In this document: one piece after another, positions 30,669 to 44,676 of the stretch
Layout: each line of letters begins with the position of its first letter
Position numbering within the stretch: the first letter of the stretch is position 1
Assembly (NCBI RefSeq): GCF_000022545.1
Contig: NC_012883.1
Span: forward strand, 984,276 to 1,048,275
Source of the DNA: Thermococcus sibiricus MM 739
GTDB lineage: Archaea; Methanobacteriota_B; Thermococci; Thermococcales; Thermococcaceae
DNA: 64,000 nt
Direction of reading: 5' to 3'
Program-made: the position numbers and the translations under genes
The notes under the pieces: generated by a model
What the model saw: only the letters and a program-made list of their open reading frames with translations
Database searches by the model: none
Told to the model about the DNA's origin: nothing

Positions 30669-30980
30669 TCAAATCGAGAGATATTTTAATGCTTTTTCAA
30701 GTCTCTTCTTTGGAATTCTAGTTTCTTTTGCCAGCTTTGTTAAATCAACATTTTTAAGATCTTCAACACTTCTGATTCCGGCTTTTTTCAGTTTTTCAAC
30801 TGTCTTTGGCCCTATTCCCTTTACGGCCAAAAGCTTTTTCTCAAAGTCTTTCTCCTCTTTTTCTAAATCTCTTTCCTCTTTTGTTGTTTTTTCAAGCTGT
30901 AGAGTGGCCTTACTGATTTCCCACTTTCCCTCTAACTTTTGAGCACTTGCGATGCTTATATTTTCTCTTACTTCTTTTTT
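30669..30980 (-). pseudogene. Out-of-frame helix-hairpin-helix tail of the branching enzyme
   Basis: Reading the minus strand from the A6 run at 30980-30975 in the frame one base off the branching enzyme gives about 100 further residues without a stop: KEVRENISIASAQKLEGKW, a charged helix, then a classic helix-hairpin-helix VKGIGPKTVEKLKKAGI and IPKKRLEKALKYLSI, ending at TGA 30669-30671. One extra A in the A6 run would join it to the enzyme and give about 666 residues, the size of the Thermococcus kodakarensis enzyme, which has such a tail. It is either a real frameshift mutation, slippage, or a sequencing error. Confidence 0.85.
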
Positions 30981-32668
30981 ATTTCCTTTAATTCTTTTGA
31001 TTCTTCTAATGGAGCCTCAGGTGGCTCGATATACTCCGAAACACTTGGAGATTCTTCACTTACATAAACATCAATGTCTATGGAGCTAAACGGGTTGTCT
31101 TTTTCTTCAATTTCTTCCAAGAATTTCATATCCTTAAATTCTCCGCTTTGGAAGTACTTCTCCAGAGCATTTGCCAAGTGATGGAAACTGTTTGCGTGTT
31201 CCAAAAGGCGCCTCTTCCCATACTCTTTTGCCTGACTCGTGGTAACAAGGAATGGCCAATCACTGCTTTCAATAAGGAGCAATTCTCTTCCAAGTTGCTC
31301 TAAAACTCTATCGCCAAATTTATCCTTGTGCAAGTATTTACTCGCAAGAGCTACCATTCTTCTCTCCGCAAGATGTATATGCTCCCACATCCACTCCACT
31401 TCTGGATTCCACCAGGTGTAATGGGTTCCATACATCCCCCAGGATCCTTCTGGAAGCTCGATCTCATATCTTTCTCCCTGGTAGTTCTCTAAGAACTTTG
31501 AAATTGTTATAGTTTCTATATTTTCTTCTGCCATTAACTCCAGCACTTTTCCAAGCCATTTAACACCCTCAAACCACCAGTGGCCGAAGAGCTCTGTGTC
31601 GTAAGGTGCCACGACTATTCCCTTAGCTCCATGTTCTCTCTCGTATTCCTCTAAGAGGGATTTAACTAAACCTACAAAATGTTTTGCATGCTCTTCCACT
31701 CTTTCTAAAGCCTTCTCAGGAACATAAGGCTCTTTTTCTCCTAAACCAATAGCCTTGGATGTAATTCTCCAATATTGGCCGCCACTTTTCTCTGCTTTTT
31801 TGTGGAATTCTCTATACCAAAAGTCTCCTGGATAGCCTATGTCTGCACTCCACACTTGAAGACCAGTCTCTCTGTTCCTAGCGAATACAGCTATATTAGT
31901 TCCTTTTATGAAGTAGGGCCTCAGTGTGGACTTTTTAGTTTTCGCAGGGAGTATTTTTCCATAACCAAAACTTGCTGGACCTTCATCTATCAAATGACTT
32001 TCAACAAAGAAAAACTTCAACCCGTGCTTTTCCAGAAACTTCTCGAGTCCTTTTCTCCACACAATTTCTCCACTGCTTGGACTTTGCCAAAGCCCCTCTG
32101 GTCTATATGCACACTCCGGGAGCCATATTCCTTTTGGTTTTCTTCCAAAATGTTTCTCGTAAGTAAGAATACCATTGGTAATCTGTCCTTCAATTGCCTC
32201 ATCTCTCTCCAAAAGAGGCAGATACCCGTGGGTCGCGGCGGAGGTAATTATCTCAATGTATCCCTCATCTTGAAGTTGCCTAAAAACTCCCAATATGTCC
32301 CCGTTTATGTTTTTCCAATATTCATAAACCTCCATAAAGTACTTGATCATATACGAGATTGCGTTTTTAAGTCGTTCATCGTCATATTTCTCTAGGTCTT
32401 CTTGCATGGCCTTAAGCTTTCTCTCCATATATTGCTCAAATTCTTTCTTCATGTACTCATCTGCAAGTTGTTCTGCTAATATCGGTGTAATGCCGATCAT
32501 CAGTTGAAACTTCACCCCTTTTTTCTTGAACCTTTCAAACTCCATCAAAAGGGGTATGTAAGTCTCCGAGATTGCCTCAAAGACCCATTCTTCACCAAAA
32601 GGCCATTTGCCATGCTTCCTTACATAGGGAATATGGGTGTGAAAAACAAAAGTAAAGTAACCTTTCAT
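30968..32668 (-). CDS. GH57 1,4-alpha-glucan branching enzyme (truncated by frameshift)
   Basis: Makes alpha-1,6 branches in glycogen. The 566 residues cover the whole GH57 catalytic fold: FVFHTHIPYVRKHGKWPFGEEW at the start (motif 1), GYLPLLERD, nucleophile Glu in KGIWLPECAYRP, acid Asp in VVAPYDTELFGHWWFEG, and motif 5 in TWWNPEVEWMWEHIHLAERR. The frame then ends in KELKEIKKK at an A6 run, losing the helix-hairpin-helix tail found in the alternate frame (30669-30980). The core should remain active, as the tail is thought dispensable. A TATA-like CTTAAATACT lies upstream near 32705. A decayed second copy is at 37370-37705. Confidence 0.93.
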   Translation of the reverse strand: MKGYFTFVFHTHIPYVRKHGKWPFGEEWVFEAISETYIPLLMEFERFKKKGVKFQLMIGITPILAEQLADEYMKKEFEQYMERKLKAMQEDLEKYDDERLKNAISYMIKYFMEVYEYWKNINGDILGVFRQLQDEGYIEIITSAATHGYLPLLERDEAIEGQITNGILTYEKHFGRKPKGIWLPECAYRPEGLWQSPSSGEIVWRKGLEKFLEKHGLKFFFVESHLIDEGPASFGYGKILPAKTKKSTLRPYFIKGTNIAVFARNRETGLQVWSADIGYPGDFWYREFHKKAEKSGGQYWRITSKAIGLGEKEPYVPEKALERVEEHAKHFVGLVKSLLEEYEREHGAKGIVVAPYDTELFGHWWFEGVKWLGKVLELMAEENIETITISKFLENYQGERYEIELPEGSWGMYGTHYTWWNPEVEWMWEHIHLAERRMVALASKYLHKDKFGDRVLEQLGRELLLIESSDWPFLVTTSQAKEYGKRRLLEHANSFHHLANALEKYFQSGEFKDMKFLEEIEEKDNPFSSIDIDVYVSEESPSVSEYIEPPEAPLEESKELKEIKKK

Positions 32669-33063: not shown

Positions 33064-34068
33064 TTAGATATATCCCAGTTTCTTTGCCAGTTCTGCATTG
33101 AGCAGAGACCCTCCCGCGGCCCCGCGAACAAGGTTGTGACCGGTAATCACGTACTTAAAAGCCGAGTCACTCCCCTCCACTCTTCCCACGGTTACGGTTA
33201 ACCCCTTTCCTCTCTCACGGTGAAACCTCGGCTGGGGAACTTCAGTGTAAACAAGGGGTTTTTCGTAGCTCGGCAGACTGAGACTTTTCAGCGGATCAAA
33301 GGACTCAAAAGCTTCCTTTATCTTCTCAGTACTTCCGTGCTCAAGTTCTATAAAAACGGCCTCCGTGTGGCCATGCAGAACTGGGACACGTGTCGCTATT
33401 GCAGAGACTTCGAAGAGCGCTGGTTTTATCCTTCCATTCTCAATCTTTCCAAGAATTTTTCTGCTCTCGTTCTCAATCTTCCATTCCTCGCCACTTATGA
33501 AGGGAATCACATTGTCGTGAATTGCCAGCGCTGAAAGGCCGAAAAATCCTGCACCGCTTATGGCTTGCATTGTAGCCACGTGAACCCTTTTTATCCCAAA
33601 ATCTCTGAGAGGAGCGAGAGATACGGCCAAGATCGCCGTGGAACAGTTCGGGTTCGTTACTATGAAACCATTCCAGCCTTTCCTCTCACGCTGAACCTCG
33701 GTAAGCCTCAAGTGCTCTGGGTTGACTTCAGGAACCAGTATCGGCACGTCGTCGTCATAGCGGTGAACCCTCGCGTTGGTAAAAATGGGAATGTCTTTAG
33801 CGAGTCTCTCCTCAACATCCCCAGCCAGAGAAGCCGGAAGAGCATTGAAAACGAGGTCAACTCCCGGATCTTTGAGGAAGTCTTCCAAGGAAATGACCTC
33901 AAAATCTCTGAACTCCTCTGGAGAATCCTCGACCAGTTCACCATATCGAATTCCTGCCGAACGCTCCGATGCTACGAGTTTCTCAACTTCAAACCATGGA
34001 TGGCCCTCTAGAAGTTTCACGAAGGTTCTTCCAACCATGCCAGTCGCTCCAAGAACAGCTACCTTCAT
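33064..34068 (-). CDS. asd: Aspartate-semialdehyde dehydrogenase
   Basis: Reduces aspartyl phosphate to aspartate semialdehyde with NADPH, the second step towards threonine and methionine. The 334 residues have the Rossmann start KVAVLGATGMVGRTFVKLL, the catalytic Cys in FIVTNPNCSTAILAVSL, and the closing VTVGRVEGSDSAFKYVITGHN with RGAAGGSLLNAE. GAGGTGAT lies before the ATG, which overlaps the threonine synthase stop by 4 bases. It is the last gene of the lysC-thrB-thrC-asd operon. GC content is about 50%, above its surroundings. Confidence 0.96.
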   Translation of the reverse strand: MKVAVLGATGMVGRTFVKLLEGHPWFEVEKLVASERSAGIRYGELVEDSPEEFRDFEVISLEDFLKDPGVDLVFNALPASLAGDVEERLAKDIPIFTNARVHRYDDDVPILVPEVNPEHLRLTEVQRERKGWNGFIVTNPNCSTAILAVSLAPLRDFGIKRVHVATMQAISGAGFFGLSALAIHDNVIPFISGEEWKIENESRKILGKIENGRIKPALFEVSAIATRVPVLHGHTEAVFIELEHGSTEKIKEAFESFDPLKSLSLPSYEKPLVYTEVPQPRFHRERGKGLTVTVGRVEGSDSAFKYVITGHNLVRGAAGGSLLNAELAKKLGYI

Positions 34069-35243
34069 CGTATCACCTCTTTAAACGCATCAAGTGTTGG
34101 TTCTATTGGCTCAGGAAGTGTGAACCTGTTGAGAACAACATTTGGATCCTTCAACCCGTGACCTGTCGTTATGAGAACATAGCTTTCACTTCTATCAACC
34201 TCACCTATCTCAAGAAGCTTTATAAGTCCTGCCAGTGATGCAGCGGATGCGGGTTCAACAAACAGGCCTTCTTTACTCGCCAGTAGTTGTTGAGCCTGGA
34301 GTATTTCCTCGTCGCTTACGCTTTCAAATAGCCCCCCTGATTCTTTGACGGCACGCCATGCCTTGGGCCAGTTGGCAGGGTTGCCTATTCTTATGGCGGT
34401 TGCAACGGTCTCCGGCTTTTCGATAGGTTTAAACTTCTCCCCTGTTTTCCAAGCCCTCACGAGAGGGGATGCGCCTTCTGCCTGTATCCCCATCATTCTC
34501 GGGAGTTTCTCCGTTATTCCTTTCTCGTAAAGCTCCTTGAACCCCTTCCAAATTGCCGAGATGTTACCTGCATTTCCAACGGGTAGGACGATGTTGTCGG
34601 GTACGAAACCGAGTTGGTCATAAATCTCTAGTGCTATTGTCTTCTGACCTTCCAGCCTAAAGGGGTTTATGGAATTGAGCATGTAAACACCAAGCTTTGC
34701 GCTCGCTTCCACTACAACTCTGAGTGCATCGTCAAAGTTGCCTCTTACAGGTACAACCCTGGCTCCGTAAATTATAGCCTGTGCAAGCTTTCCAAGAGCT
34801 ATCTTTCCGCTAGGCACTAGGACATAAGCTTTAATCCCCGCCCTCGCTGCGTAAGCTGCCAAAGACGCTGATGTATTGCCAGTGGATGCACATATCACCT
34901 TGTCCATACCGAGTTCTAGGGCTTTGGAGACGCCAACTGTCATCCCTCTATCCTTAAAAGAACCCGTAGGGTTTGCTCCTTCGTTTTTGGCATATATTTC
35001 GACACCAAAGCCCTTTTCAAGGTTCTTGAGCTTGTAGAGTGGTGTTCCACCTTCATTCAGCGAAACCCTGCTCTTAACTGGTAGCCAACTCTTGTATTTC
35101 CACAGCGTTACATTCTTGCCGTCGAAGACGTCCTCTGCTCTATCGAGGTCCGTGACGACCTCAAGTAGCCCACCACACTCACAGCGGTAGCGGAGGTCAT
35201 TTTCGTCATATTTTCTTCCACACTCAATACACTTCAAAACCAT
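34065..35243 (-). CDS. thrC: Threonine synthase
   Basis: A pyridoxal-phosphate enzyme that converts O-phosphohomoserine to threonine. The 392 residues start with a zinc-ribbon-like CIECGRKYDENDLRYRCECGG, then the PLP lysine in GANPTGSFKDRGMTVGV, CASTGNTSASLAAYAARAG (phosphate loop) and VLPVGNAGNISAIWKGF. Length and motifs match the archaeal short form. Overlaps thrB by 10 bases and asd by 4, so translation is coupled across the operon. Shares the raised GC of the operon. Confidence 0.96.
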   Translation of the reverse strand: MVLKCIECGRKYDENDLRYRCECGGLLEVVTDLDRAEDVFDGKNVTLWKYKSWLPVKSRVSLNEGGTPLYKLKNLEKGFGVEIYAKNEGANPTGSFKDRGMTVGVSKALELGMDKVICASTGNTSASLAAYAARAGIKAYVLVPSGKIALGKLAQAIIYGARVVPVRGNFDDALRVVVEASAKLGVYMLNSINPFRLEGQKTIALEIYDQLGFVPDNIVLPVGNAGNISAIWKGFKELYEKGITEKLPRMMGIQAEGASPLVRAWKTGEKFKPIEKPETVATAIRIGNPANWPKAWRAVKESGGLFESVSDEEILQAQQLLASKEGLFVEPASAASLAGLIKLLEIGEVDRSESYVLITTGHGLKDPNVVLNRFTLPEPIEPTLDAFKEVIR

Positions 35244-36112
35244 ATGGCACCCCTTCCAACTTTTGTAACATAAACATCAGCCTTAATATCCATTCCGCTG
35301 AAAGTCTCAGCTATGACCTTCCCTATTTGGGCCACATCCTCTCCTATGGCAAACACTGCTGGGCCGGAACCGGAGACTGAGAAACCGTAAGCACCTGCTT
35401 CAAGTGCGGCCTCTCTTACAGTTTCATACCACTGCATGAGCTGTTTCCTGTATGGCAGGGCTATCCTGTCATCGAGAAGCCTCCCAACAGTCTGAAGGTC
35501 ATTTTCCTTTAGAGCGAGGATTAGAGATGCTGCTAGGGCGAGATTTCTAATAGCATCTTTCCTTGGGATTTTTGATGGAAGAATCTTTCTCGCCTCGCTC
35601 GTCGGAATTTCGATCGCGGGAAGAACCACCACAACTTCGAAGTTCACTGGAATTCTCCAGATCTTCAGTGGCTCGTAGGATTCTATAATCGTGAAGTCGC
35701 CATAGTAAGCTGGAATCACATTATCTCCGTGGACACTGCCCGAAGCCACTCGTTCTCCCTCCATTGCCGCCCGAAGTATCATCTCATCATCCTCAACACC
35801 AAGAACCTTTGCCATCGCAAGCGCTCCGGCCAGTGATGATGCTCCCGAGCTTCCAATCCCACTTTTGGGCCTTATCCCCTTGGTAAGTTTCATTTCTAAG
35901 GCGGTCTCCTCTCCCACCATTGCCGCGAGAGCTTTTGCCGAAACTATGGCAATATTGTTGGAATTCTCCGGTACTTGGTAGCCCTTGACTCTCACCATCC
36001 ATTCATCTGATTCCTTGAAGCTCAGCTCGTCGTAAGGCTTCCCTACACCTACACCAAAGACATCAAACCCTGGTCCAAAGTTAGCTATAGTCGCATGAAC
36101 TCGTACTTTCAT
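35234..36112 (-). CDS. thrB: Homoserine kinase
   Basis: A GHMP-family kinase that phosphorylates homoserine for threonine synthase. It has 292 residues from the ATG at 36112, chosen because GAGGTGGT lies 5 bases before it and the protein then begins MKVRVHATIANFGPGFDVFG like other ThrB proteins. The ATP loop is GIRPKSGIGSSGASSLAGA, with GFSVSGSGPAVFAI as the third GHMP motif. The first 32 bases overlap the end of lysC. Homoserine dehydrogenase, needed between Asd and ThrB, is not in the window. Confidence 0.95.
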   Translation of the reverse strand: MKVRVHATIANFGPGFDVFGVGVGKPYDELSFKESDEWMVRVKGYQVPENSNNIAIVSAKALAAMVGEETALEMKLTKGIRPKSGIGSSGASSLAGALAMAKVLGVEDDEMILRAAMEGERVASGSVHGDNVIPAYYGDFTIIESYEPLKIWRIPVNFEVVVVLPAIEIPTSEARKILPSKIPRKDAIRNLALAASLILALKENDLQTVGRLLDDRIALPYRKQLMQWYETVREAALEAGAYGFSVSGSGPAVFAIGEDVAQIGKVIAETFSGMDIKADVYVTKVGRGAIWF

Positions 36113-37118
36113 CAAAGACCACCTCATGGATTTCTCTAAGGGCGGGAACAAGCTCCTCCTTCTCGATGGTGAGTGAGAAGTACCCCCTTCCTCTTCTGCC
36201 TTTCCAACCTGGAAGTTTCTTCACACCGACAACTGCTATCCTAGCAATCTTCCCTTCGACACGGTGAACAACTATCGGCCACTCCTCCCCGAATTCAGAG
36301 ACAAGGGTCCCCATGTTCCAGTCTTCAGTCTTTCCGAGTATCAAGGGGATTCCTTGGAGCGGCTTGAGGGCTTCCGGGTGGAGAGCCTTCATGCCAAGCC
36401 TTGCCGCCAGCATGGCTCTGTCTCTTGATATGAAGTGAAAGAGTCTTGCCTCAGGTACAAGTCTCGGATCGGCAGTGTAAATACCCTCCACATCACTCAT
36501 TATCAGCACGGCCTTCGCTTTAAGCATCGCCCCTAGAGCAGAAGCAGTATAGTCACTTCCACCCCTGCCAAGCGTTGCGGTTCTTCCGTTAAGGTTACCT
36601 ATGAATCCAGTAACAACTGGAACTACCTTCTCTGTTAGTTCTCCCAGTTTTTGAACGTGAGGTAGGCTTGCTGAAAAATCAATTTTCGCATTTCCGAAGC
36701 TTCCACGAAGCATCAAAACCTCAGTAGCATCCAGAGAAAGTGCTGGAACCCCCTCATTCTCTAAGGCTTTTGCAAAGAGGGCTGCTGAGAGCTTTTCTCC
36801 GAAGGAAAGAATATAGTCTCTCCATGCAAGGTCATGGCGACGCTTGGTAATTGCCTTCTCTAGGTCGCTTAGAATCGGCTCTATATCCACCCCAAGCCTG
36901 TTAGCCATTTTTGAATGTTCTAGAATGATGCTTTCAAAGATACCCAAATCGGACTGCTCTGAAAGCTGTATCAACTTCTCTGTGACACCCTTAAGAGCAG
37001 AAACGACAACTACAAGCTTGCTTCCCTCTAGGAGATATTCAACTAACTTCAATGCGCTCCAAAACGAGTTCTTCACTGAGCTTCCTCCAAACTTTACTAC
37101 TCTGAGTTTCTCCATCAC
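36081..37118 (-). CDS. lysC: Aspartate kinase
   Basis: Phosphorylates aspartate, the first step of the threonine pathway. The 345 residues begin KLRVVKFGGSSVKNSFWSAL (amino acid kinase KFGGSS), with TATLGRGGSDYTASALGAML and VEGIYTADPRLVPEARLF for the nucleotide and aspartate sites. Only one short ACT-like region remains at the C-terminus, so feedback control may be weak or different from that of the usual 450-residue, two-ACT enzymes. The start is GTG 37118 or ATG 37115. First gene of the operon; no strong TATA box was pinned down. Confidence 0.93.
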   Translation of the reverse strand: MMEKLRVVKFGGSSVKNSFWSALKLVEYLLEGSKLVVVVSALKGVTEKLIQLSEQSDLGIFESIILEHSKMANRLGVDIEPILSDLEKAITKRRHDLAWRDYILSFGEKLSAALFAKALENEGVPALSLDATEVLMLRGSFGNAKIDFSASLPHVQKLGELTEKVVPVVTGFIGNLNGRTATLGRGGSDYTASALGAMLKAKAVLIMSDVEGIYTADPRLVPEARLFHFISRDRAMLAARLGMKALHPEALKPLQGIPLILGKTEDWNMGTLVSEFGEEWPIVVHRVEGKIARIAVVGVKKLPGWKGRRGRGYFSLTIEKEELVPALREIHEVVFDESTSSCDYS

Positions 37119-37875
37119 CCATAAATAATCACCACAGCTTAGGGAGTTTTTTAGAAGATATAAAGTTTTCCCGATTTTTTTCAGATTGATGGCAACAATT
37201 CCCAGTCTTTGATAGGAAATTTACAATGACTATGTGGAAATCTACCTCTCCAGTTGGATAGCTGACAGTACCCTAGAGATGTTTGTTCTACTGCTAACTA
37301 CCTCCCAGTGTATCGTGTTAAGGACACTCACATCCCCGAACTCTCTCTCCCGAGAAGGGGGCCGAGTTACTGGGCCTTCATCTATCAAATGGTTTTCAAC
37401 AAAGAAAAATTTTAGCCCGTATTTTTCCAAAAATTTTTTCTAAGTCCGTTCTTTACAAAACTTCACCAGTACCTGAACGCTACCTACCATTAACTATTAA
37501 AAATTAAAGTTTTTGTAAATCTCCCTCTCATCCCTACCTTAAAAGGCGAGGCCTTCAGTTGTAATCATCTGCAAGTTGCTCTGCTAAAATTAGTGTTATC
37601 CGAAAAGGGGTATGTAAGTCTCGGGTATACCCTCAAAAACCTACTCCTCACTAAAAAGCCATTTACCATGTAAGGAATATGGATATGAAGTGCAAAAGTA
37701 AAATTACAACCAAGTATTTAACATTTTTGCCCTTTTTGAAACAGTTTTGAGTCGACAAAATGATCTACAAGAATAAAATAGACTTTAATGGAAGAATTCT
37801 GTTTTTTGAGCAATTAATATTTCATAGAAAAAGGGTTTAAAAAGTATCCCTCTAATTACACCAGGTGAAAAGAGA
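37119..37875. other. 757-base region with no intact gene
   Basis: It holds the upstream side of the threonine operon (37119-37200, A/T-rich), an unassigned stretch (37200-37369), the wreck of a second branching enzyme gene (37370-37705), and the upstream side of the NEMF gene including the A/T-rich promoter zone around 37825-37850 (GGGTTTAAAAAG). Confidence 0.6.
37370..37705 (-). pseudogene. Decayed second copy of the GH57 branching enzyme (N-terminal part)
   Basis: On the minus strand 37430-37374 encodes EKYGLKFFFVENHLIDEGP, against EKHGLKFFFVESHLIDEGP in the intact enzyme at 32050-31976. The bases at 37372-37425 match 31980-32033 with few changes. A second block, 37565-37705, matches 32455-32662 (shared features: CATCTGCAAGTTG, AAGGGGTATGTAAGTCTC, GGAATATG). 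The parts between are deleted or scrambled, and stops and frameshifts are frequent, so it cannot code. It lies on the far side of the threonine operon from the intact gene. Confidence 0.85.
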
Positions 37876-39828
37876 ATGAAACAAGAAATGAGCAGTGTCG
37901 ACATAAAGTACATAGTGGAGGAGCTAAAAACCTTGGAAGGTGCTAGAGTCGATAAAATATACCAAGACAAGAACCGAGTTAGAATTAAACTACATACAAC
38001 GGGAGAGGGGAGAAACGATTTAATCATAGAAGCCGGTAAAAGGATTCATTTAACTACTTACATAAAAGAAGCTCCCCAGCATCCATCTTCATTCACAATG
38101 CTGCTCAGAAAGTATTTAAGCGGATCACGAGTGGAAAAAATAGAACAACACGATTTTGATAGAATTGTAAAGCTAAAAATTGGCAACTATACTTTAATTG
38201 CAGAACTTTTCCAGAAAGGGAATATAATATTAGTTGATGAAAACAACGTGATAATCTCTGCCATGAGATATGAAGAGTTTAAAGACAGAACAATAAAACC
38301 ACAACACGTGTACCTACTCCCGCCTGCAAGAGAGAATCCAGTTGACATCTTATGGGAAAACTTTAGGGAACTTATTTCCTCTCAAGATGTGGAGATAGTA
38401 AGAGCACTAGCAAGAAAACTCAATATGGGCGGACTATATGCAGAAGAAATCCTCTTAAGGGCCGGAATAGAGAAAACAAAACGAGCCAATGCTCTTGATG
38501 AAAATGAGCTTAAAGTTATATTTGAAAAAATAAAAGAGGTCTTCAATGCCCCTAAAAAGGCCAATATCATATACAAAAACGACAATCCTATAGACGTCGT
38601 ACCTATCGAGCTTAAATGGTATGAAAGTTATAAGAAAAAATTCTTCACTACCTTTAGTGAGGCACTTGATGAATATTTTGGAAAGATTCTTCTTGAGAGT
38701 GCAAAGATAGAAAGAACAAAGAAACTTCAGAATAAGAAAAGACAACTCGAAGCCACTCTTAGAAAACAAGAAGAGATGATAAACGGATTTAAGAACCAAA
38801 TACAAGAAAATCAAGAAATTGGAGACTTGATATATACCAACTTCGCCTTTATTGAGAATCTACTGAAAGAGCTTTCAAAGGCTGTAGAAAAACTTGGATG
38901 GAAAGAATTCAAAGAGAGAGTAGAAAATGGCAAAAAATCTGGGAATAAAATTGCTCAGATAATCAAAAACATAGACGCTAAAGAGAAGGCAGTCACAATT
39001 GAACTTGATGGAAAAAAAGTAAAACTCTATTTAAACAAAAGTGTTGGAGAAAATGCAGAAATCTACTATGAAAAAGCCAAAAAAGCAAAACATAAACTCG
39101 AAGGGGCCCAAAAAGCCCATAAAGAAACACTAAAGAAAATCAAGGAAATAGAAAAACTAATAGAAGAGGAGGAGAAAAAAGAGCTTAGCGTGAGGAAGCT
39201 CGAAAAAAGAAAGAAGAAGTGGTTTGAAAAGTTTAGGTGGTTCTTAAGTAGTGAAGGATTCTTAATAATAGCTGGAAAGGATGCCACAACGAATGAAATT
39301 GTAGTTAAAAGATATATGAGTGAAAACGACCTCTATTGTCATGCTGATATTTATGGTGCCCCCCATGTAGTAATAAAAGATGGTAAAAAAGCTGGAGAAA
39401 AGACACTATTTGAAGCCTGTCAGTTCGCCGTTTCAATGTCAAGAGCTTGGAAAGAGGGATTATACTCCGGAGATGCTTACTGGACAGACCCCAACCAAGT
39501 TACAAAAAAAGCCCCAAGTGGAGAATATCTTGGCAAAGGAGCATTCATGGTTTATGGAAAGAGGAACTGGATGCATGGCTTACCCGTAAAGCTCGCTGTT
39601 GGAATAGTGCAATACGAGGAAGAGAAACTACCTATGTGCGGGCCGGTGGAAGCGGTAAAAGCCCATACTGACAAATACATTATTATTCGTCCAGGAAGAA
39701 TGAAAAAAAGCGAATTTGCAAAAAAGTTAGCGAAAATTCTAGAGAGATGTGGATACAAAGTTGATCTTGATGAGCTTATGCAAATTCTTCCTCCTGGCAA
39801 TAGCGAAATTGTGGAGGTGATTGAATGA
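37876..39828 (+). CDS. NEMF/Rqc2-family ribosome rescue protein
   Basis: A 650-residue archaeal relative of Rqc2/NEMF/FbpA, which bind stalled large ribosomal subunits and recruit tRNA. The N-terminal NFACT-N domain starts MSSVDIKYIVEELKTLEGARVDKIYQ. Helix-hairpin-helix and long coiled-coil regions lie at about 260-330 and 390-440 (LQNKKRQLEATLRKQEEMING; KETLKKIKEIEKLIEEEEKK). The NFACT-R domain is near 455-560 (WFEKFRWFLSSEGFLIIAGKD, NDLYCHADIYGAPHVVIKDG). GGTGA precedes the ATG. It is followed with a 4-base overlap by the 146-residue gene. Confidence 0.92.
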   Translation: MKQEMSSVDIKYIVEELKTLEGARVDKIYQDKNRVRIKLHTTGEGRNDLIIEAGKRIHLTTYIKEAPQHPSSFTMLLRKYLSGSRVEKIEQHDFDRIVKLKIGNYTLIAELFQKGNIILVDENNVIISAMRYEEFKDRTIKPQHVYLLPPARENPVDILWENFRELISSQDVEIVRALARKLNMGGLYAEEILLRAGIEKTKRANALDENELKVIFEKIKEVFNAPKKANIIYKNDNPIDVVPIELKWYESYKKKFFTTFSEALDEYFGKILLESAKIERTKKLQNKKRQLEATLRKQEEMINGFKNQIQENQEIGDLIYTNFAFIENLLKELSKAVEKLGWKEFKERVENGKKSGNKIAQIIKNIDAKEKAVTIELDGKKVKLYLNKSVGENAEIYYEKAKKAKHKLEGAQKAHKETLKKIKEIEKLIEEEEKKELSVRKLEKRKKKWFEKFRWFLSSEGFLIIAGKDATTNEIVVKRYMSENDLYCHADIYGAPHVVIKDGKKAGEKTLFEACQFAVSMSRAWKEGLYSGDAYWTDPNQVTKKAPSGEYLGKGAFMVYGKRNWMHGLPVKLAVGIVQYEEEKLPMCGPVEAVKAHTDKYIIIRPGRMKKSEFAKKLAKILERCGYKVDLDELMQILPPGNSEIVEVIE

Positions 39829-40265
39829 TAACACTCTATGCAATAGCCCAAAGGGAACTTGCGAAAGACCTGCTTTTTGAAATAGATGATGAAGTCGTTA
39901 CCTTATCTGTTAAAGGAATTATGATAGCCAAAAGTGTTTCAAAAACATACAACTTCTCTTTTGTGGAAGTTACAGATAATGAGTTTGTTCTAGCAGTTCA
40001 AATGAAGGGGTATGTGATCTACTTGGGACTTGAAAGTGATGAGATAATAGATGAAGATGCGTATCCTGAACTGGTAAGAGCCTTAATAAATCATCTCTTG
40101 TCTAGTCTTCATAACCTGGTTAGAGAAGCTGAAAAAGAATATCAAGGAAAGGCTGACTTGCTTTTGGATGACAATATGAGTGCGGAAATGAAAGAGTTCT
40201 TCTATGAGCTACTTCTCAAACATCAACGGGGTTTACCTACTCACGAACAGGTCGATGTGGCATGA
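39825..40265 (+). CDS. Conserved hypothetical protein coupled to NEMF
   Basis: 146 residues: a beta-rich N-terminal half (LLFEIDDEVVTLSVKGIMIAKSV, FVEVTDNEFVLAVQMKGYVIYL) and a helical C-terminal half (PELVRALINHLLSSLHNLVREAEK; AEMKEFFYELLLKHQRGLP). No known motif. It overlaps the NEMF gene by 4 bases behind GAGGTGATTG, so it may act in the same ribosome-rescue process; that is inferred from position. A decayed copy exists at 32774-33050 beyond the threonine operon. Confidence 0.78.
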   Translation: MITLYAIAQRELAKDLLFEIDDEVVTLSVKGIMIAKSVSKTYNFSFVEVTDNEFVLAVQMKGYVIYLGLESDEIIDEDAYPELVRALINHLLSSLHNLVREAEKEYQGKADLLLDDNMSAEMKEFFYELLLKHQRGLPTHEQVDVA

Positions 40266-40304
40266 GCAAAGGATTTTTAAGCCTCAGGAGTGAGGAGAAG
40301 AAAC

Positions 40305-41387
40305 ATGAAAGAGACAAATTACTATTCATACGTTGTTGGTGAGCTTCCAAAAGGATGTAAACTCTGTGTCAAGGGCACAAAATTAGTACTATTCACCACC
40401 GGAATATGTCCTAGAGAGTGCTTCTATTGTCCTCTTAGTCCCTGGAGGAGAGAAGATGTTAGTTATGCAAATGAACGGCCGATAAAAAATGTCAATGACA
40501 TCATAGAAGAAGCAAAAATCCAGGAAGCGTTAGGAGCGGGTGTTACTGGAGGGGACCCACTCTCAAGAATAGATAGAACTGTCAAGTACATTAAAACACT
40601 GAAAGAAAATTTTGGAAAGAAATTTCATATTCATTTATATACAACCGGCCTTCTTGCAACAGAGGAGAACTTAGGAAAACTCTACGACGCTGGTCTTGAC
40701 GAAATTCGATTTCATCCAGATATTTTTAATCCAAACTCTAATATCTTTCAAAGGGAAATAGAACACATAAAAGGCGCCTTTGACTTTGAATGGGATGTTG
40801 GAGGGGAAGTTCCTGCGTTTCCGGGACAAGAAGAGAGAATAAAGTGGTATGCCGAATTTTTAGATAAACATGGGGCAAAATTCCTAAACATAAATGAGCT
40901 TGAATTTAGTGAAACTAATCTTGAGGCCCTGCTATCAAGAGGATTTAGGACAGTAAGTGATGAGAGTTCTGCAATAAAAGGAAGTTTAGAATCTGGATTG
41001 ACAATTCTGCAATGGGGTGAAAAGAATACGTCTCTGAATTATCACCTCTGTACAGCCAAACTTAAAGATGCAGTACAACTCAAAAATCGGCTTAAAAGAA
41101 TGGCAAAAAACGTCGCCAGATCCTACATGGAGATAACCCAAGATGGGACACTTAAATTTGCAGTGGCTGAGTATGAGGACCTTATGGAGCTCTATGATCT
41201 CCTCGTAAATGAGGCAGAGGTTCCAGAAGAATGGCTCTACCTAAATCTGAAAAAAAGAAGGATTGAAATGCCCATAGAAGTTGCAGAAGAACTTGTCGGC
41301 GCTGTAGAAGGGGATGTAAAGTTTTATGTGGTTGAAGAATATCCCACATGGGATAGAATTGAAGTCGAGAGAATTCCGTTATCATAA
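40305..41387 (+). CDS. Radical SAM protein (COG2108-like)
   Basis: 360 residues from the ATG at 40305 (GTGAGGAG 7 bases before). The iron-sulfur motif is CPRECFYCPL (CxxxCxxC, about residues 35-42), followed by GGDPL for SAM binding and a TIM-barrel order of strands (KKFHIHLYTTGLLAT, LDEIRFHPDIF, WDVGGEVPAFPG). It resembles the archaeal group described as related to pyruvate formate-lyase activating enzyme. The substrate is unknown. A TATA-like GGATTTTTAAG at 40271-40281 gives it its own promoter. Confidence 0.85.
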   Translation: MKETNYYSYVVGELPKGCKLCVKGTKLVLFTTGICPRECFYCPLSPWRREDVSYANERPIKNVNDIIEEAKIQEALGAGVTGGDPLSRIDRTVKYIKTLKENFGKKFHIHLYTTGLLATEENLGKLYDAGLDEIRFHPDIFNPNSNIFQREIEHIKGAFDFEWDVGGEVPAFPGQEERIKWYAEFLDKHGAKFLNINELEFSETNLEALLSRGFRTVSDESSAIKGSLESGLTILQWGEKNTSLNYHLCTAKLKDAVQLKNRLKRMAKNVARSYMEITQDGTLKFAVAEYEDLMELYDLLVNEAEVPEEWLYLNLKKRRIEMPIEVAEELVGAVEGDVKFYVVEEYPTWDRIEVERIPLS

Positions 41388-41463
41388 TCTTTTTCCTGAC
41401 CTTCCTTAATGATCATTCAAACATCTATAAAATAACAAAATGAGATTATAAAAAAGAGAAGAT

Positions 41464-44400
41464 TCATCCAACCTTCTCTATACCTATTTTTGCCTCCACT
41501 TCTGGCCACTCGACTACATATCCCCTTGGCTCTTCAAACTTAACTTCAATAGCCCGTGTTTCTCCCTTTATGTAATCAAGCATCTCTTCGAGAAGTTCTT
41601 TGTTTTCCTCCGTTGTCTCAACGTAAGCCATTATCCTATCATTTACGTCTAGATCCAGTTGTTTTCTCATCTCCTGAATTCTCCTTACAAACTCCCTCGC
41701 TAAGCCCTCCGTCATTAATTCCCTAGTGATGATCTTGTCAACAAAGACTTTTCCATGATCAAATTCTTCCCCTATTAAGAACTCTGGAAGCTCTTCTTCC
41801 ATGATTATGTGTTCCTTCTCAATCGTAAACTCCTTATCTCCTACTTCTACCTTGAGCTTTCCTTGCATAAGTCTCTCATAAAGTTCTTTGCCATTCTGCT
41901 CACTTATCCACTTTGCAACTACCTTTGCATCTCCCTTGAAATGAGGTCCAAGTTTAGCAAAGTTGGGCTTTACTTTTATTTCCCTCTCAATTTTTGCCAC
42001 TTTGACCTCCTTAGCATTCAATTGATCTCTTAAAAGCCGGTTGAGTCTCTCTACAGCTTTCTTAGTTATTTCATCTTCAGTTTCTACTATTACTTGCTTT
42101 ACAGGGTAGCGAAGTTTTATTTTAGCTTTTTGTCTTGCTGCTGAGCCAGCTTCTACTATCTTTCTAACTATTTCCATCTCTTTTTCAAGATCTCCATCCA
42201 CCCAGCTTTCATCTTTTTTCGGCCAATCTTCTAAATGAACACTTTCTTTATTGCTAAATGGCCTTATTAGGTTTTGATAGATTTCTTCAGTTATGTACGG
42301 TGTAAAGGGAGCCATTAGCCTGAGCAAGACATCAAATATTTTCCAAAGAGTCCAGTAAGCCGCTAATTTATCAGGATCATCTCTTTCAACCCATAGCCTT
42401 TTTCTTATGACTCTAACATACCATCTGCTGAGATCCTCTATAATGAAGTTTTCTATTCCTCTAGTAGCTTTTGTTAGATAGAAACTCTCTAGGCCATCTT
42501 CCACAGTACTGATTAGATTATTAACCTTCGAAAGTATCCACTTGTCTTCCTCTCTAAATGGAAGTTCCTCGGGATTAAGTTTAGTAGGATCAAAGTTATC
42601 CAGGCTCATGTACGTTGAGCTCAGTATATAGACATTCCATAGTATGTTGAGCATTCTCTTAACTTGGGCCAGACCTTTCCAGCTGAATCTAAGATTCTCC
42701 CATGGAGTAGTTGCCCAAAGCATATAGAACCTAAACGGATCTCTACCATCTTTTTGAATAACATCCTCAGGCCTTATTATATTCCCAAGGCTCTTACTCA
42801 TCTTGTCTCCTTTTTCATCTAGGACATAACCATGCATTGCCACTTTTCTGTAGGGGACTGTGTCAAAAGCCACAACTGAAGCTGCCTGCTGGGAGTAGAA
42901 CCACTTTGTAACCTGATCTTCTCCTTCTACAATGAAGTCTGCTGGCCATAGCCTCTCAAATAGATCTTTTCTCCTTGGATAATCTAAAGATGCCCAACTT
43001 GCTATTCCACTATCAAACCATACATCGAGCACATCTTTGACACGTTTCATTTCCTTGTTGTTTACTTTTATAACAAAGGCATCAACGTATGGTCTGTGAA
43101 GATCCTCTGGCCCTAGTTTTTCTTCTATGACTCTAAGCTTTTCGTCATAACTCTCTGGAAGTTCTATTCTCTCACCATTAACTTCAATGGCTACTGAAAG
43201 CTCAACAAGTTCTTCAAAAGTACCTACTATGTATATCTCCCCATCTTCACTACTCCATATTGGGAGGGGTATTCCCCAATATCTTTGCCTTGAGATACAC
43301 CAATCACCTGAGTGCATGACACCGTTGTCATACCTTATCTTTACCCAATCGGGATACCAAGTGACTTTTTTGTCATTTTCTTCTATTATTTTGTCCTTAA
43401 CTTTGCTTATCTTAAGAAACCATTGATCAGTGGCCCTAAATATGAGGGGTGTTTTACAACGCCAGCAGTGCGGATACTTGTGTTCTATTGTTCCTGCTTT
43501 GAGGAGAAGGCCCTTTTCTCTTAGGTATTCTACTATCTCTGGATCAGCATCTTTAACGAATTTGCCCTTCCACTTTCCTTCATAGTACCTTCCTTCATCA
43601 TCAAGGGGTGAATAAATTGGAATTCCATACTGTTTTCCTATTTCAAAGTCTTCTTCACCATGGCCTGGAGCTGTGTGAACTAATCCAGTACCCTCTCCAA
43701 GAGTTACATGTTCACCGAGTATCAATTTATGGGCCCACTTGTATTTCTCTCTAAATTCTTTCTGTCTTGGATATTCCTCTAAGAATGGATGCACATAGCG
43801 GAGCCCTTCCAGTTCTTCACCCTTGAATTCTTCCACTATCTCCCCTTTAGCTCCAGTTTCTTCGAGAATTCTCCCAACAAGTGCCTTTGCTACTATCCAA
43901 TATTCTTCTTTCCCTTCATGAGATACCTTCACCTTTGCATACTCATATTCCGGATGAACTGTAACGGCCAAGTTGGCTGGAAGAGTCCATGGCGTAGTTG
44001 TCCATATTAGAACATATTCGTTATCTTTCCCCTCTACTGGGAATTTTACATAGATACTAGGATCTTCTCTTATTTTGTACTCTCCTCTTACTTCATGCTC
44101 TGCTAAAGCCGTTTCACATCTAGGACACCAGTGGAGAACCCTTTGGTCTTTTTCGAGAAGACCATTTTCCCATGCCCTCTTTAAAGTAAACCATGCAGAT
44201 TCTATATACTCATTTTTGATTGTCATGTACGGATTATCCCAATCCATCCAAACTCCGAGCATTTTAAACTGCTCTGTCATGATTTTAAGATTAGTTAAAG
44301 CAAAATCCCTACACTTCTTTATGAAGTTCTCAACTCCCACCTTCTCTTCTATATCTTTCTTGTATTTCAATCCTAGGGCCTGTTCAACTTTAACTTCTAT

Positions 44401-44676
44401 TGGAAGGCCATGCATATCAAACCCTGGTTGTCTTCTAACATTGTACCCTTGCATGCTTCTGAAACGTATGACCATGTCTTTTATTATTTTGTTCCATGCA
44501 GTACCTAAATGAATGGCACCACTTACATATGGGGGTCCATCAAGGAAATAATAATCAGGGCCAGTTTCTCGGGCTTTTTTTACTTTATTGTAGATTTCAT
44601 TTTCCTTCCAGAGCTTTTCTATTTTTTCTTCTAAGACCTGTGGATTATATTCTTTCATCTCTGGCTCTTTTATCAT
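41464..44676 (-). CDS. ileS: Isoleucyl-tRNA synthetase
   Basis: Charges tRNA-Ile. The 1070 residues form a class I synthetase: HIGH motif in PPYVSGAIHLGTAWNK (residues about 48-63), a large CP1 editing domain (TTTPWTLPANLAVTVHPEYEY; GTGLVHTAPGHGEEDF), KMSKS in DKMSKSLGNIIRPEDV, and an anticodon-binding plus C-terminal region. Length is normal for archaeal IleRS. GGAGGT stands before the ATG. A predicted transcript start near 44786 would leave an unusually long 5' leader of about 110 bases with a hairpin. Confidence 0.98.
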   Translation of the reverse strand: MIKEPEMKEYNPQVLEEKIEKLWKENEIYNKVKKARETGPDYYFLDGPPYVSGAIHLGTAWNKIIKDMVIRFRSMQGYNVRRQPGFDMHGLPIEVKVEQALGLKYKKDIEEKVGVENFIKKCRDFALTNLKIMTEQFKMLGVWMDWDNPYMTIKNEYIESAWFTLKRAWENGLLEKDQRVLHWCPRCETALAEHEVRGEYKIREDPSIYVKFPVEGKDNEYVLIWTTTPWTLPANLAVTVHPEYEYAKVKVSHEGKEEYWIVAKALVGRILEETGAKGEIVEEFKGEELEGLRYVHPFLEEYPRQKEFREKYKWAHKLILGEHVTLGEGTGLVHTAPGHGEEDFEIGKQYGIPIYSPLDDEGRYYEGKWKGKFVKDADPEIVEYLREKGLLLKAGTIEHKYPHCWRCKTPLIFRATDQWFLKISKVKDKIIEENDKKVTWYPDWVKIRYDNGVMHSGDWCISRQRYWGIPLPIWSSEDGEIYIVGTFEELVELSVAIEVNGERIELPESYDEKLRVIEEKLGPEDLHRPYVDAFVIKVNNKEMKRVKDVLDVWFDSGIASWASLDYPRRKDLFERLWPADFIVEGEDQVTKWFYSQQAASVVAFDTVPYRKVAMHGYVLDEKGDKMSKSLGNIIRPEDVIQKDGRDPFRFYMLWATTPWENLRFSWKGLAQVKRMLNILWNVYILSSTYMSLDNFDPTKLNPEELPFREEDKWILSKVNNLISTVEDGLESFYLTKATRGIENFIIEDLSRWYVRVIRKRLWVERDDPDKLAAYWTLWKIFDVLLRLMAPFTPYITEEIYQNLIRPFSNKESVHLEDWPKKDESWVDGDLEKEMEIVRKIVEAGSAARQKAKIKLRYPVKQVIVETEDEITKKAVERLNRLLRDQLNAKEVKVAKIEREIKVKPNFAKLGPHFKGDAKVVAKWISEQNGKELYERLMQGKLKVEVGDKEFTIEKEHIIMEEELPEFLIGEEFDHGKVFVDKIITRELMTEGLAREFVRRIQEMRKQLDLDVNDRIMAYVETTEENKELLEEMLDYIKGETRAIEVKFEEPRGYVVEWPEVEAKIGIEKVG

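Follow-up and report, generated by a model that had tools for sequence, protein, structure and literature searches.

The branching-enzyme gene and its out-of-frame tail

The window analysed here is a stretch of 64,000 nucleotides of the Thermococcus sibiricus MM 739 genome (G000:C1:984276-1048275; genome 1,845,800 bp). It carries a gene for a GH57 1,4-alpha-glucan branching enzyme (BE) that closes just past a run of six A, together with a helix-hairpin-helix (HhH) tail that continues in another frame. Read along the minus strand, the locus comprises the following features.

30968..32668, minus strand: GH57 1,4-alpha-glucan branching-enzyme ORF, 566 aa, with catalytic and BE_C domains, ending just past the A6 run
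30974..30980, minus strand: heptamer A_AAA_AAG (A6 plus G) in the zero frame; the frame changes here by one base, and the tail lies in relative frame 2
30980-30975, minus strand: the A6 run, read from the sequence
30968..30970, minus strand: zero-frame TAA stop, one codon (AAG) past the heptamer
30672..30971, minus strand: tail of 100 open codons in the -1 frame, a Lys/Glu-rich linker followed by the HhH
30693..30839, minus strand: HhH domain within the tail (HHH_5, Pfam PF14520, tail residues 45-93, E 3.1e-12)
30669..30671, minus strand: TGA stop of the tail frame, from the sequence and the open-frame reading

The ORF matches the NCBIfam equivalog NF041133 with 1108.6 bits against a cut-off of 1000 (BE residues 3-555 on model positions 1-553), and its two Pfam matches are both nearly complete (PF03065, E 4.5e-61; PF09210, E 2e-30). 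The NF041133 model has 553 positions and does not cover the tail. In the zero frame, ATA AAA AAG AAG TAA encodes the end of the C-terminus ...KELKEIKKK, while the tail frame from 30971 reads VRENISIAS...LLAVKGIGPKTVEKLKKAGIRSVEDL...LKYLSI. The tail is homologous to tails that are in frame elsewhere, with 68-74% identity to those of five same-genus genes, and its relative frame 2 is equivalent to -1. One added A, or one -1 slip, would thus join the two parts into 666 aa, compared with 651-664 aa in intact same-genus relatives, about 651-665 aa in close relatives and 675 aa in L034. These results bear out the original prediction in its description of the locus, namely a branching enzyme ending in KEIKKK at a six-A run (32668-30968), a second frame of about 100 stop-free residues with an HhH, and a restored length of about 666 residues, the size of the related enzyme. 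The length of the open tail frame exceeds chance, because at least 100 open -1 codons follow only 1 of the 43 in-frame A_AAA_AAG heptamers in a 400-kb sample of the genome (343 ORFs, the BE gene included), which was used for both the heptamer and the A6 counts.

Surroundings of the locus

In relatives, BE and a conserved 650-aa gene are divergent neighbours, and a P-II gene comes after BE. In MM 739, a threonine-type operon has been inserted between BE and this usual neighbour, and a fragment of a second BE copy lies beyond it.

33064-37118, minus strand: threonine-type operon (aspartokinase, homoserine kinase, threonine synthase, aspartate-semialdehyde dehydrogenase)
37367-37702, minus strand: decayed relict of the 5' end of a second BE copy, including the region upstream of it; it resembles G083/G079/G076 most

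The relict adjoins the divergent 650-aa gene and is separated by the operon from the functional copy. The region 37876-44676, which holds the 650-aa gene and its neighbours, is 92-97% identical to G079/G076/G083 and 83-86% identical to G074. In contrast, G074 is the closest match for BE, gdhA and two distant genes, and most of the other genes checked also lie nearer to it. This pattern marks the locus as a mosaic formed by recombination, in a genome that is itself mosaic. The BE relict was probably brought in by the segment that resembles G079/G083. Given that the flanks are closer to G079/G083, we also considered whether the whole BE gene had been imported from a G074-like donor. This was rejected, since by the two distant genes G074 is the nearest genome overall, which makes the other flank, and not BE, the mosaic part.

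Several further observations concern individual genes. The operon's aspartate-semialdehyde dehydrogenase shares 87% identity with its counterpart in G052, from another genus, and a second paralog at G000:C1:1442088 only 66%. A sodium/alanine-type symporter gene at about 916,600 of G000:C1 (L094:1587-1760 region) lacks one A, with A5 against A6 in G074, and the broken gene is otherwise 92% identical to G074's 515-aa gene. An MFS-type transporter gene at about 980,760-981,990 of G000:C1 (L097) is broken because one of its C runs is one C longer than in G074. At G078:C1:108081-110526, a gene is split into three frames that elsewhere in the genus form a single frame of 816+ aa.

Presence and loss of the tail across Thermococcaceae

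We searched 94 Thermococcaceae genomes and read the 3' ends of about 80 BE genes, 78 of which were usable. A full tail is in frame in 63 of the 78; the other 15, the MM 739 gene among them, are without one. On the tree, the state of the tail changes at least seven times, five of the changes being forced by starred branches, and the differences among the lesions suggest that the losses probably number about ten. The lesions are deletions in L006, L020/L021, L024, L031 and L063, nonsense mutations in L013 and L033 and, with progressive decay, in L043/L048/L055, and a separate frameshift with the HhH intact in L045. By genome, the genes are as follows.

G074: tail deleted, with a decayed HhH remnant left
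G089: TGA ahead of a decayed tail
G076/G079: tail gone
G012, G006, G008: tail gone, with the stop near a convergent gene
G004: TGA within an otherwise intact HhH
G041/G039/G026: a stop in common, then frameshift decay of varying degree
G027: a different frameshift, with the HhH intact
G087, G059: no in-frame full tail

The BE gene L085 (G029) is a separate case, a whole-gene pseudogene with five in-frame stops (four TGA, one TAG) in a complete genome.

One of these tail-less enzymes is known biochemically. The P. horikoshii protein of PDB entry 5wu7 matches the L031 gene, tail-less and ending at 560 aa, to its very end, and the primer used to clone the P. horikoshii BE ends at the same codons (PMC6835866). 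The recombinant tail-less enzyme makes alpha-1,6 branches and is hence active (PMC6835866), which shows that the tail is dispensable for catalysis. On this comparison of gene ends, the tail is an accessory part of BE that has been lost repeatedly in Thermococcaceae. Such recurrent loss of an HhH from a glycogen enzyme suggests a conditional or minor role for the tail; a literature search on the HhH of branching enzyme returned nothing.

Age of the frame change

The out-of-frame tail of MM 739 shows no decay. The pN/pS of its HhH against five intact relatives is 0.08-0.15, comparable to 0.06-0.12 for four relatives against the equally distant G084 and to 0.09-0.11 for the catalytic domain against the same relatives. 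A single substitution would turn 53 of its 100 codons into a stop. When neutral evolution was simulated, a tail free of stops and with four or fewer replacements in the HhH was retained with a frequency of 12% at 0.05 substitutions per site and of 0.9% at 0.08. Since the HhH is conserved as in intact genes, the shift is recent; by this simulation, the neutral substitutions behind it come to no more than about 0.05-0.08 per site. The divergence at 4-fold sites between MM 739 and G074, whose BE is the nearest to that of MM 739 (88%), amounts to 0.64, or about 0.32 per lineage. The shift would then have arisen within, at most, the final quarter of the period after MM 739 and G074 diverged, unless the cell does not carry it or continues to make the tail.

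Because both genes are without an in-frame tail and group together, we asked whether the frameshift could be common to MM 739 and its sister G074. This was rejected: the tail here is constrained while that of G074 is a deleted remnant, and with so recent a loss in MM 739, the loss in G074 is a separate one.

Explanations for the frame change

We consider a genuine recent contraction of the homopolymer at A6 the most likely reading, with a probability of roughly 0.6; this figure, like our gradings of sequencing error, recoding and transcriptional slippage, is a judgement and not a computed posterior. The Lys/Glu-rich, A-rich linker would recently have lost one A from its homopolymer, so that translation would now end at 566 aa and the C-terminal HhH would no longer be made. 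As the catalytic and BE_C domains are complete, glycogen branching should persist, and the truncated MM 739 enzyme should be active, judging from its domains and by analogy with its tail-less counterpart. The repeated loss of the tail in the family favours plain loss as the simpler reading, and indels in homopolymers would readily become established in a Lys-rich tail that the enzyme can do without. The linker is A-rich, and 18 of the 63 intact relatives also carry runs of A6 or longer in the 80 codons past residue 537. What counts against a contraction is that the tail has not decayed at all; this would also be expected from a read error, or if the tail were still translated. We hold it probable, to about the same degree, that the deletion of the A is real in the DNA of the living cell and not just in the assembly. 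In either event, the frame change amounts to the usual decay of a gene, or else to a slip in sequencing, and conceals no special coding mechanism; the original prediction had listed a recent mutation or read error among its options, and these are the ones now supported.

The main competitor is a miscounted homopolymer, such that the cell holds A7 and a single intact 666-aa enzyme; we regard this as rather unlikely, though worth serious attention. The constraint on the tail, equal to that in intact genes, is what an error would leave, and a comparison of 203 orthologs (about 62,000 aligned aa, G074 as reference) revealed two other clean one-base homopolymer shifts in the same assembly, those of the symporter gene (A5 for A6) and the MFS-type transporter gene (one added C), so an assembly error is not negligible. 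The MM 739 genome was reportedly published in 2009, in the pyrosequencing era, which we take as favouring an error. Nevertheless, clean homopolymer shifts are rare in conserved genes of this assembly, since 2 of 203 orthologs corresponds to about 1% of genes and to about 0.004 expected per 390 nt, the length of the stretch in question. Among the 77 other genomes, about two show a clean, real-looking loss of the tail (the frameshift of G027 and the nonsense mutation of G004), which would give a real loss the higher prior. If the G027 and G004 lesions are real, the prior of a fresh loss would be about six times that of an error, and less if some of them are errors themselves.

Frameshifting in dnaX makes gamma and tau, and -1 shifts are stimulated by a structure 5-9 nt downstream or a Shine-Dalgarno (SD) sequence about 10 nt upstream. 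A programmed -1 shift (PRF) at A_AAA_AAG in the BE gene would likewise yield two isoforms, one carrying the HhH and one lacking it. The resemblance is real in several respects. The site has the form X_XXY_YYZ in phase (30980-30974) and is followed by a -1 ORF of 100 open codons; heptamer, phase and direction of the shift are exactly those of dnaX, whose shift site is A_AAA_AAG (PMC5009743); fucA1 of Saccharolobus solfataricus is an archaeal gene rescued by -1 PRF, at A_AAA_AAT (PMC8211752); and the tail appears to be under purifying selection. The heptamer, however, is common, being present in frame in 39 of 343 genes (11%) of the 400-kb sample. Comparison of the tract across relatives, which the original prediction had proposed as a check, found A_AAA_AAG at this position in none of the 63 intact genes, nine of which have one farther into the tail (residues 581-645). 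We found neither a stimulatory structure 5-9 nt downstream of the heptamer nor an SD some 10 nt ahead of it: in a model of pseudoknot-free folds, the 95 nt that follow are no more stable than shuffled sequences (z -0.61), the first weak hairpin begins about 18 nt past the heptamer, and the sole SD-like stretch, AAAGGA, sits 3 nt upstream. Additionally, the genome has tRNA-Lys genes for both the CUU and the UUU anticodon, which weakens slippage at A_AAA_AAG; Atkins et al. name the same state as a likely reason for A_AAA_AAG being unused for ribosomal shifting in Thermus (PMC5009743). The tail is, moreover, dispensable in relatives.

On heptamer frequency, conservation, structure, SD spacing and the tRNA-Lys set, we rejected recoding as the leading reading and consider it improbable. 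Still a little less probable is its specific form, in which -1 shifting would give a soluble 566-aa BE and a minority 666-aa form whose HhH binds nucleic acid; if true, it would be a case of archaeal recoding producing two isoforms of a metabolic enzyme. The original prediction that slippage could make both forms is therefore unsupported, and the locus instead illustrates clearly how a dnaX-like heptamer can arise by coincidence, in an A-rich archaeal genome where one gene in nine has such a heptamer. Least credible of all is slippage by RNA polymerase on A6, giving some A7 mRNAs and, from them, a share of full-length enzyme. The gene does contain an A run, and slippage on A/T runs is documented, but the runs cited for it have n > 7-8 (PMC3711429) against n = 6 in MM 739, and the 375 A6 runs in the coding sequence of the 400-kb sample imply that A6 is not strongly slippery genome-wide.

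Comparison with known systems

The likeness of the MM 739 gene to dnaX (A_AAA_AAG) and the archaeal fucA1 (A_AAA_AAT) lies in the heptamer, its phase, the direction of the shift and the stop just after it. Unlike in dnaX and fucA1, the site is unconserved, stimulators were not found around it, the genome encodes a tRNA-Lys(CUU) and the domain past the site can be dispensed with. The enzyme itself belongs with the TK1436-type GH57 BEs of Thermococcales (NF041133; PDB 3n8t), sharing the catalytic domain and BE_C with a full-length equivalog match. L034 has a like tail in frame, whereas that of MM 739 lies in the -1 frame, beyond the reach of standard translation. A parallel in extent is the P. 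horikoshii BE (5wu7), which ends at the same place as the MM 739 ORF (about 560 aa) and is likewise without the HhH; in P. horikoshii the tail DNA is wholly gone, whereas in MM 739 it is intact and out of frame.
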